Source: Streptomyces afghaniensis 772
GTDB lineage: Bacteria; Actinomycetota; Actinomycetes; Streptomycetales; Streptomycetaceae
Assembly (NCBI GenBank): GCA_000415505.1
Contig: KE354125.1
Location: 1 to 34,169 of the forward strand
Length of the DNA stretch: 34,169 nucleotides
Reading direction: 5' to 3'
This document shows, piece after piece, positions 18-25,369 of the stretch; within the stretch, counting starts at the first letter, position 1, and each line of letters begins with the position of its first letter. Below the pieces are notes generated by a model. That model worked only from the letters and a program-made list of their open reading frames with translations, ran no database searches and was not told where the DNA came from. Made by a program: the position numbers and the translations under genes.

Positions 18-900
18 CTACGTGTCGCACTCCAGCACGCTCCGGCACAACGCACACCGCGCCCGCACCCGCCCCCGCACCGGCACCCTGATCCGCTGAT
101 GGCAGGTCGGACAGGGAAACACACCCGCAGCCGCCCGCCCCCGTGGGAGTGAACGAGTACCGCACATCCGGCTGCGGCGGCCCGGCGGCGCATGCCGCCG
201 GTCGCGCGCGTACCGCCGTCGCCCCGCCACCCGCCGCCGTCAGCGGCGGCTGCTGCTCATCGCGCCGGGCCAGCTCCATCCCCTTCACGTACGCCGTGTA
301 CGCCTGCGGGCTGGTGAACCACACCGACGGGTCCTCCCCGAAGACCAGCGCGCGCTTGGCCAGCACGTACCCGAACTCCTCCGGAGTGAGATACCCCAGC
401 TTCTGGGACGACGCCCGGTCCTCCCGGTACGCGTCCAGCAGCAGCCAGCCCGCACCCAGATACGTCGTCGCCGTGTCCGTCAGGATCTCGTTGTCCCTCA
501 CGCCTGGGAACGACAGGTCGAGGCGGTGCAGGTACACATGCATCACCTCGTGCGCCAGCGCCGCCCCGATGTCCCGCCGATGCGTACGGAACCGGTCGTT
601 CAGCTCCACGAAGTACTCCGGCCCGGCCGCCAGCTCGACATTCGCCGCGTGCCGCATCTCCCGGAAGCTCACGATCAGCCGGGCGTCCGGCAGCCGGTAG
701 TGCCGCACCAGCTCGTGCGCCACACGCTGCGCCCCCAGATACAGGTCGTCGGTGTCGCAGAACGCCACGTCGGCGGGGAGCACACTGGTCGCGAACGTCT
801 GGATCGTGTCGTACGACAGCCGCCTGTACAGCGCCGTGATGGCGGCCCGCACCGTCTCCAGATGCGGGTAGCCGTGCTCGACCGGCCCGTCGTTCGCCAC
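18..900 (-). CDS. HExxH metallopeptidase-like protein with C-terminal zinc ribbon (frameshifted)
   Basis: Read from GTG at 898-900, preceded by a GGGGGTGAGG ribosome-binding stretch. The protein carries HEVMH at residues 117-121, followed by NEILTD (137-142), which could supply the third zinc ligand as in gluzincin-type peptidases. No signal peptide is visible, so it is probably cytoplasmic. The frame stays open to the window edge, but from about base 140 the next frame encodes a clear zinc ribbon (CPTC, then CALC, ending LECDT and TAG at 18-20) with G/C-rich third positions. Removing one C from the CCCCC run at 138-142 joins both parts into one protein of about 293 residues. The HExxH motif and zinc ribbon are seen directly. 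Peptidase activity is inferred, and the substrate is unknown. It is divergent from the GNAT gene. Confidence 0.75.
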
Positions 901-1021
901 GCCTCACCCCCAAGACGCCCTGAACCCGGTTCCACTGTACGAAAGTGTGACGCCCACGGGGCCGCTCCGCCGCCGCGAAAACCGGTCGTCGCCGCCCCGG
1001 GCCGCTGGCAGAATCCGGGTC

Positions 1022-1474
1022 GTGACCGGCGAACAGCGCTCCGCCGCCGCCTCGCTCCGGGTGGGCGGCCAGGACGACACACTCGAGAAGCGGCTCGACG
1101 AGGAGCTCACCGCCTTCAACACCGCGGCCGCCGACGGCGCCACCACCGAGCCCCTCTCCGTCCGCGCCACCGACGAGGCCGGCGACCTGATCGGCGGGCT
1201 CACGGCCTGGACCTGGGGCAGCCTGGCTTGCGTGGACATGCTCTGGGTGCGCGCGGACCAGCGGCTCGCCGGCTGGGGCGGCCGGCTGATGCGCGCCGCG
1301 GAGGAAGAGGCCGTCCGGCGCGGCTGCACGGACATGATCGTCTCCACGTACAGCTTCCAGGCGCCCGGCTTCTACCCGCGGCTCGGCTTCCGGGAGCGGG
1401 CCCGCATCGAGGGCGTGCCCGGCGGACACGAGGACGTCTACTTCCACAAGCGGCTGAGCCCCGCCGAGTCGTGA
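1022..1474 (+). CDS. GNAT family N-acetyltransferase
   Basis: This 150-residue protein has the GNAT layout. A beta-rich N-terminal half (LIGGLTAWTW, then ACVDMLWVRADQR) leads into the acetyl-CoA pyrophosphate loop RLAGWGGRLM. A terminal segment GFYPRLGFRERARIEG is typical of the family's last strands. The start is taken at GTG 1022, because residues encoded upstream are proline/arginine-rich and do not look like GNAT sequence; no strong ribosome-binding site decides this. It likely transfers an acetyl group from acetyl-CoA to a small molecule or protein amine, but the substrate cannot be read from sequence. It lies about 5 kb from the desA/desB-like genes and is not part of that operon, so it is not an obvious DesC substitute. 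Confidence 0.85.
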   Translation: MTGEQRSAAASLRVGGQDDTLEKRLDEELTAFNTAAADGATTEPLSVRATDEAGDLIGGLTAWTWGSLACVDMLWVRADQRLAGWGGRLMRAAEEEAVRRGCTDMIVSTYSFQAPGFYPRLGFRERARIEGVPGGHEDVYFHKRLSPAES

Positions 1475-1505
1475 GACGGCCCGCGGCCGCCGGGCGTGCG
1501 CCCCT

Positions 1506-23031: not shown

Positions 23032-23076
23032 GGGGCCCGGTCTCCGTTCGTCCAGATCATGCGGTTACCACTATGG

Positions 23077-23092
23077 CTGAGCAAACGCTCAG
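23077..23092. promoter_or_regulatory. TetR-like operator before the thioesterase gene
   Basis: CTGAGC-AAAC-GCTCAG is a 6-bp perfect inverted repeat with a 4-bp centre, a layout typical of TetR-family operators. It overlaps the last codons and stop of the fdhF-like gene. A CATAGT hexamer that could be a -10 lies just downstream on the minus strand. Confidence 0.5.
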
Positions 23093-25369
23093 TCGGTCGC
23101 CGATTGTTCCAGACGCACCAGGACGGACTTGCTGGCCGGGGTGTTACTGGTGTCCGCCGTGGCATCCAGCGGCACCAGCACGTTGGTCTCCGGGTAGTAC
23201 GCGGCGGTGCAGCCCCGGGCCGTCGGGTAGTGCACGACGCGGAAACCGGGCGCCCTGCGCTCCACGCCGTCCTTCCACTCGCTGACCAGGTCGACGTAGT
23301 CGCCGTCCGCCAGCTTCAGGGCCCGCGCGTCCTCGGGGTTGACCAGCACCACCCGGCGGCCGTTCTTGATGCCCCGGTAGCGGTCGTCCAGGCCGTAGAC
23401 CGTGGTGTTGTACTGGTCGTGCGAGCGCAGCGTCTGGAGCAGCAGGCGGCCCTCGGGCAGTTCCGGGTACTCCACGGGCGCGGCGGTGAAGTTGGCCTTG
23501 CCGGTGGCCGTGGGGAAGCGGCGCTCGTCGCGCGGGGCGTGCGGGAGTGTGAAGCCGCCGGGGCGGGCCACGCGCGCGTTGAAGTCCTCGAAGCCGGGGA
23601 TCACACGCGCGATGCGGTCCCGGATCGTCGCGTAGTCCTTCTCGAACTCCTCCCAGGGCGTGGCGCTGTTCTCGCCCAGCACCCGGCGGGCCAGGCGGCA
23701 GACGATGGCCGGCTCGGACAGCAGATGCCGGCTCGCGGGCTCCAGCCGGCCCCGGGAGGCGTGCACCATGCCCATCGAGTCCTCGACCGTCACGAACTGC
23801 TCGCCGCTGCCCTGGAGATCGCGCTCCGTGCGGCCGAGGGTGGGCAGGATCAGGGCACGCGCGCCCGTGACCGCGTGCGAGCGGTTCAGCTTCGTCGACA
23901 CGTGCACGGTCAGCCGGGCCCGCCGCATGGCCGCCTCGGTGACCTCCGTGTCCGGGGACGCGGAGACGAAGTTGCCGCCCATGGCGAAGAAGACCTTCGC
24001 CTCGCCGTCGCGCAGCGCGCGGATCGCGCGTACGACGTCGTAGCCGTGCTCGCGCGGCGGGGCGAAGCCGAACTCCTTCTCCAGGGCGTCCAGGAACGCC
24101 GGGGCGGGGCGCTCGAAGATGCCCATCGTGCGGTCGCCCTGCACGTTCGAGTGGCCGCGCACCGGGCACACGCCCGCGCCCGGGCGGCCGATGTTGCCGC
24201 GCAGGAGAAGGAAGTTGACCACTTCCCTGATCGTCGGCACCGAGTGCTTGTGCTGGGTGAGACCCATGGCCCAGCAGACGATGGTCCGCTCGGAGGTGAG
24301 GATCATCCGGAGGGCCTTCTCGATGTCCTCCCGGGTCAGGCCGGTCGCCGCGAGCGTCTCGTCCCAGTCGGCGGCGCGGGCGGCCTCGGCGAACTCCTCG
24401 TAGCCGTGCGTGTGCTCCCGGACGAACGCCTCGTCGACCGCGCCCTCGGTCTCGACGATCAGCTTGTTGAGCAGACGGAACAGGGCCTGATCGCCGCCGA
24501 TGCGGATCTGCAGGAACAGGTCGGTCAGCGCGGCGCCCTTGAGCATGCCCTGCGGGGTCTGCGGGTTCTTGAAACGCTCCAGGCCCGCCTCGGGCAGCGG
24601 GTTGACGCTGATGATCCGCGCCCCGCCGGCCTTGGCCTTCTCCAGGGCTGACAGCATGCGCGGGTGGTTCGTCCCCGGGTTCTGGCCGGCGACGATGATC
24701 AGGTCGGCCTTGTACAGATCCTCCAGCAGGACGCTGCCCTTGCCGATGCCGATCGTCTCCGACAGGGCCGAGCCGGACGACTCGTGGCACATGTTCGAGC
24801 AGTCGGGCAGGTTGTTCGTGCCGAGCTCGCGGGCGAACAGCTGGTAGAGGAACGCGGCCTCGTTGCTGGTGCGGCCGGAGGTGTAGAAGACGGCCTCGTC
24901 CGGGGAGCCGAGGGCGGCGATCTCCTCGGCGACGATGTCGAAGGCGCGCTCCCAGGTCACCGGCTCGTAGTGCGTGCCCCCCTCGGGGAGGTACACGGGG
25001 TGGGTGAGGCGCCCCTGCTGGCCCAGCCAGTAGCCGCTGCGGCCGGCCAGGTCGGCGACCGGGTGCGCGGCGAAGAACTCGGGCGTGACCCGGCGCAGCG
25101 TGGCCTCCTCGGCGACGGCCTTCGCGCCGTTCTCGCAGAACTCCGCCTTGTGCCGGTGCTCCGGCTCCGGCCATGCACAGCCCGGGCAGTCGAAGCCGTT
25201 CTTCTGGTTCACGCTCAGCAGCGTCAGCGCCGTGCGCTTCACACCCATCTGCTGCTGGGCGACTCGCAACGTGTGCCCGATCGCGGGGAGTCCCGCTGGC
25301 CGCGTGCTGCGGCCCGGCGACCTGCGGCGCGTCCTGAACCGGATCACTCTTGGGCGGCTTCGTCGCCAT
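23089..25369 (-). CDS. FdhF/YdeP family molybdopterin oxidoreductase (frameshifted near the N-terminus)
   Basis: A large Mo-bis-MGD oxidoreductase resembling the formate dehydrogenase alpha subunit. The start is ATG 25367-25369 behind GGGAG. The first ~24 residues (MATKPPKSDPVQDAP...) are in one frame; from AGLPAIGHTLRVAQ the next frame continues to the stop. One surplus base near 25297-25299 accounts for it, giving about 759 residues. Cysteines in DCPGCAWPEPE and AEFCENG are candidate iron-sulfur ligands. NMCHESSGSALSE, IVAGQNPGTNHPRML and CPVRGHSNVQGDRTM follow the cofactor-binding domains, and the C-terminal molybdopterin dinucleotide domain contains RLLLQTLRSHDQYNTT. No electron-transfer subunit or fdhD is adjacent. 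The physiological substrate of this family is uncertain. Confidence 0.9.

Follow-up and report, generated by a model that had tools for sequence, protein, structure and literature searches.

The locus studied here raises a simple question: are five genes whose reading frames break within a single contig decaying pseudogenes, or sound genes of the living strain that were misread in a draft assembly? The window, meaning the whole stretch of DNA that was analysed, is the entire contig C420 (34,169 bases) of a Streptomyces draft assembly (G000; 9.85 Mb, 1,724 contigs; completeness 99.89%, contamination 2.39%). A preliminary description had listed five genes with net single-base frame changes, placed mostly at runs of G or C, and had ascribed them to homopolymer-length errors in the sequence rather than to pseudogenes.

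Five frame breaks and their reference

As a reference we used G009, a complete genome in one contig and the nearest of the 20 relatives searched at the tested place, which aligns with the window in five blocks at 90-97% identity; the named near genomes S. africanus, S. coeruleorubidus and S. swartbergensis reach 93-94% over their aligned parts. Genes were called on G009 with a codon-usage scorer (the stretch L112 served as training data for the gene finder only), followed by a scan for indels that leave the frame changed. Moreover, base lengths at each site were compared among 26 chosen loci and G009, counting those that align at 200 bits or more.

Over 28,796 bp of coding sequence, the scan against G009 gave six net-frame clusters, which are the five reported genes, all recovered at or near the places first proposed, plus 23 added bases where a gene at about 33344 ends. 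All five genes are uninterrupted and in a single frame in G009. The list of five broken genes is sound and, against this reference, nearly exhaustive. With few exceptions, relatives encode these genes in one frame and oppose the window at the sites. As for the reported lack of stop-codon decay, no in-frame stop turned up in any of the 25 genes of the window that were codon-aligned to G009. Separately, the 23-base addition relative to G009 lies near 33338, where two genes converge.

Features of the window discussed in the text, with positions counted from its first base
Feature	Position	Strand	Remarks
HExxH protein with C-terminal CxxC pairs (site 1)	18..900	-	Frame disturbed repeatedly in 121-233; length of the orthologue match
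Overlap with the start of contig C437 (its bases 4-238, reversed)	4..232		6 single-base gaps, 0 substitutions
Pyridoxal-dependent decarboxylase (site 2)	6184..7589	+	Frame change about 6357; PF00282 on the G009 orthologue
5'-nucleotidase / cyclic-nucleotide phosphodiesterase family (site 3)	9012..10807	-	Frame change 10754-10758, about codon 17; PF02872 and PF00149 on the G009 orthologue
LivG-type ABC ATPase (site 4)	15786..16623	-	Frame change about 15882, in an Ala/Glu-rich tail; PF00005, PF12399
FdhF/YdeP family oxidoreductase (site 5)	23089..25369	-	Frame change about 25298, near residue 20; TIGR01701 above cut-off

For the 5'-nucleotidase, the run of C at 10754-10757 had been called one base too short, and so it is against the seven relatives aligned (7/7). 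The scans for this gene and for livG took in 85 sequences (the window, four pieces of the genomes G006 and G007, and 80 named loci), in 10 of which the 5'-nucleotidase is absent or too short; 74 read through the site in a single frame, unlike the window. In the same line, the surplus base at about 25298 in the FdhF-type gene was found against all eight distinct relatives aligned. The match to this protein begins at residue 21 in the window, against residue 1 or 2 for the best matches in 60 of 60 other genomes, and the gene is unsplit in 59 of 60 relatives, with three carrying one in-frame stop. These stops are a TGA in G037 and G052 and a TAG in G010, and the split gene of G005 is split elsewhere.

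The best NCBIfam model for livG was LivG PRK11300, below its cut-off, and the 5' end given in the table is that of the script match, with a true start that may lie upstream. The one surplus base announced for this gene was seen against the nine relatives aligned (9/9), but its position had to be moved: it lies at about 15881-15883 instead of in the GGGG at 15886-15889, a run of normal length in eight of those nine. Among the 85 sequences, livG is absent from five, and the site is crossed without a stop by 72 and with a stop in the aligned stretch by six; the remaining two are L078, which ends at the site, and the broken window itself.

In the decarboxylase (best NCBIfam model the L-2,4-diaminobutyrate decarboxylase NF052646, below cut-off), the base missing near 6357 is missing in comparison with four of the five relatives aligned, and the fifth, L030, has two more bases than the window at this point and is itself broken there. 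Family sequence had been recognised on both sides of the break, and indeed the family is matched in frame 1 up to the site and in frame 0 beyond it. The 80 named loci comprise 26 with no match, two cut by a contig end, 46 with a whole gene and six in which it is broken or only partly matched. A side observation is that the decarboxylase of S. viridochromogenes DSM 40736 holds a 90-base tandem array of about six copies; the loci concerned in these decarboxylase findings are window 6184-7589 and L030:4097-4665.

The HExxH gene is the most disturbed, with translated frames that hop several times. Compared with G009 it is one base short at five places, about 121, 146, 187, 227 and 233, a net change of -5 that equals +1 modulo 3, so that the original reading of one base too many is correct as a net value only; the CCCCC at 138-142, to which the excess had been assigned, is equally long in G009 and contig C437. 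The gene is thus short of about five bases within 121-233 and has no surplus C. Its match in the window covers residues 1-258 of the 295-residue G009 orthologue, as compared with matches extending to residues 293-295 in 55 of the 56 genomes with a match (60 other genomes of the genus, E 1e-40), and the lone exception stops near a contig end. Counting the source genome, the protein was found in 57 of the 61 Streptomyces genomes searched, and no Pfam or NCBIfam model matched it at 1e-3.

Elsewhere in the window, an ORF at 13319-14290 with a LAGLIDADG_3 match just below the cut-off encloses a tRNA-Leu (CAA) encoded on the same strand (14172-14247).

Contradictory contig ends and the frameshift rate of the assembly

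A clonal strain cannot hold two lengths at one place. Three overlaps between contig ends (C420/C437, C430/C325 and C582/C318) contain, over 950 columns, 14 single-base gaps and no substitutions, which is the mark of indel error in contig copies of the same place; among the five sites, that of the HExxH gene alone is covered by such a copy. At the six gaps between the window and C437, G009 has the length of C437 four times and that of the window twice, which suggests errors in both contig ends. The right end of the window (last 600 bases) had no overlap with other contigs at E 1e-20, and the stretch L021, tested for overlap with the window, had none.

To compare rates we counted strict clusters, lying at least 30 bases from the ends of genes and blocks and having both flanks at least 80% identical. 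One flank of the decarboxylase site falls under 80% identity, and the window therefore counts four and not five. These four, in 27,296 bp, stand against 11 in 1,086,912 bp at the homologous region of 80 other Streptomyces assemblies (Poisson P about 2e-4), many of which are more divergent (81-85%), where sensitivity may be lower. Zero clusters were found in 73 of these 80 controls, and L076 alone supplies four of the 11. The eight controls at 88% identity or more gave one cluster in 107,052 bp, about equal to the overall control rate, and G006 and G007 gave zero strict clusters in 18,187 and 26,233 bp.

The breaks reach beyond the five genes. Five other places in the genome contained 12 strict clusters in 59,804 bp; before filtering they had counted 17 in 64,184 bp, several of them at gene ends. 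On nine other contigs there were 29 strict clusters in 137,371 bp, with eight of the nine affected and C756 free of them, and the ten contigs together hold 33 in 164,667 bp, nine carrying at least one. With overlapping contig ends counted once per contig, the outermost 600 bp at the contig ends, 8,528 of the 164,667 bp, account for 13 of the 31 non-divergent clusters. The interior by itself, with 18 in 156,139 bp of coding sequence, is still at about 11 times the rate of the controls. Both rpoC and dnaE, examined as housekeeping genes, are unbroken, where about 0.9 breaks in the two would be expected at the interior rate, a result that speaks neither for nor against error. A reverse scan of the assembly's own genes against G009 gave 11 clusters in 155,489 bp, mostly the same events met again through own genes that are truncated, and did not serve as a control. 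One further gene, L109:5887-6723 compared with G000:C318:1564-2071, shows three strict and four unfiltered one-base losses and has no NCBIfam match.

As regards the kind of error, 37 one-base events on nine of the ten contigs, a set that leaves aside the decarboxylase site, two divergent clusters (C325 and C318) and three 2-base events, comprise 28 losses and nine gains, 30 of them of G or C. Classed by their longer allele, 17 events are at a single base, 11 in a run of two and nine in a run of at least three, the last against a background of 13.8% (P 0.06); runs of at least four are found in seven of the 37, against 4.1% (P 7e-4). The typical event thus differs from a slip in a long run (28 of 37 are in runs of one or two), though long runs are over-represented. 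The proposed homopolymer cause holds only weakly: the enrichment of runs of four or more speaks for it, but they make up a minority of the events, and two of the five runs to which the breaks had been assigned, those of HExxH and livG, were wrong.

Sequence error or genuine mutation

The preference for sequence errors over pseudogenes is well supported by the contradictions at contig ends, by the clusters on nine of ten contigs and by the intact codons of the genes. Substitutions relative to G009 at the first, second and third codon positions number 6/2/23 in the HExxH gene, 26/16/50 in the decarboxylase, 9/10/48 in the 5'-nucleotidase, 7/3/36 in livG and 18/5/58 in the FdhF-type gene, a third-position bias that, with the lack of in-frame stops, is not that of a pseudogene, though a very young one could look alike. 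The shorter flanks of the breaks, of 16-39 codons, have too few changes to be judged alone. Altogether, we consider it highly probable that the strain itself carries all five genes whole and that the breaks are single-base errors of the draft assembly. Such insertions and deletions would arise in the draft assembly, most densely near contig ends, and thin or indel-prone read data may be their cause; sites 2 to 5 would then be errors as well, as at site 1, where a second contig copy contradicts the window.

A mixed origin is unlikely: one or two breaks, with the decarboxylase and the livG tail as the most plausible cases, would be true mutations of recent date, and the others errors. In its favour, of 52 testable relatives six have a decarboxylase orthologue that is broken or matched only in part, four of the 11 control clusters sit in this gene (though two such loci, L084 and L046, are whole by protein search), and S. 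viridochromogenes has its tandem array there. In this regard, the GeneTack survey considers breaks near the 3' end of a gene more likely to be real indels than errors (PMC3711429), a remark that tells against certainty for livG and also bears on the HExxH gene, whose break is contradicted by C437. Against real mutations, the assembly's own rate predicts breaks like those of the decarboxylase and livG, and around 6357 there are no stops and substitutions fall most often at third positions on either side (3/2/10 in 39 codons and 23/14/40 in 410). Even so, the decarboxylase appears the least certain of the five, a real mutation being less easily excluded there, with the livG tail alongside it among the least certain.

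That all five breaks are real, in a strain with an indel-mutator character or in the course of shedding many genes, would agree with the high density of frameshifts against G009, but is very improbable given that two contig copies of the same place contradict each other, that the excess is greatest at contig ends and that the window genes have accumulated no stop codons. Equally hard to credit is a genuinely elevated rate of single-base indels in the strain, or a mixture of cells differing almost only by indels, either of which would make the differences between contig copies real variants. Programmed ribosomal or transcriptional frameshifting, which would keep the broken genes readable and for which the recognisable family sequence on either side of the breaks might speak, has next to no probability: the testable relatives use one frame in the 5'-nucleotidase (74 of 74) and keep the FdhF-type gene unsplit (59 of 60), and no break conserved among the orthologues aligned was seen at the sites, L030 being broken differently.

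Known artefacts of the proposed kind

Under the reading of assembly error, the interior rate extrapolated from the ten contigs would imply spurious frame breaks numbering in the region of a thousand for a genome of this size, and pseudogene counts and gene-content comparisons made from this draft would be untrustworthy gene by gene. The five breaks are very probably an artefact of an already known kind, rightly suspected from the sequence alone. PMC5698493 suspects one artefact of the frameshift-error kind in a mitochondrial gene. For Corynebacterium pseudotuberculosis Cp162, three assembly versions in turn had 116, 67 and 41 frameshifted pseudogenes, and its authors point to indel errors of SOLiD and Ion Torrent (PMC10836205). 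The GeneTack survey expects unclustered frameshifts validated by homologues to be sequencing errors and not true indels (PMC3711429).

The present breaks resemble those of Cp162 in being frameshifts from probable indel errors in a draft bacterial assembly, and differ in that the case made here rests on contradictions between contig ends and on a comparison of rates (PMC10836205). They are likewise similar to the GeneTack singletons in being unclustered breaks validated by homologues, with the difference that the survey dealt with complete genomes and the present case with a fragmented draft (PMC3711429).
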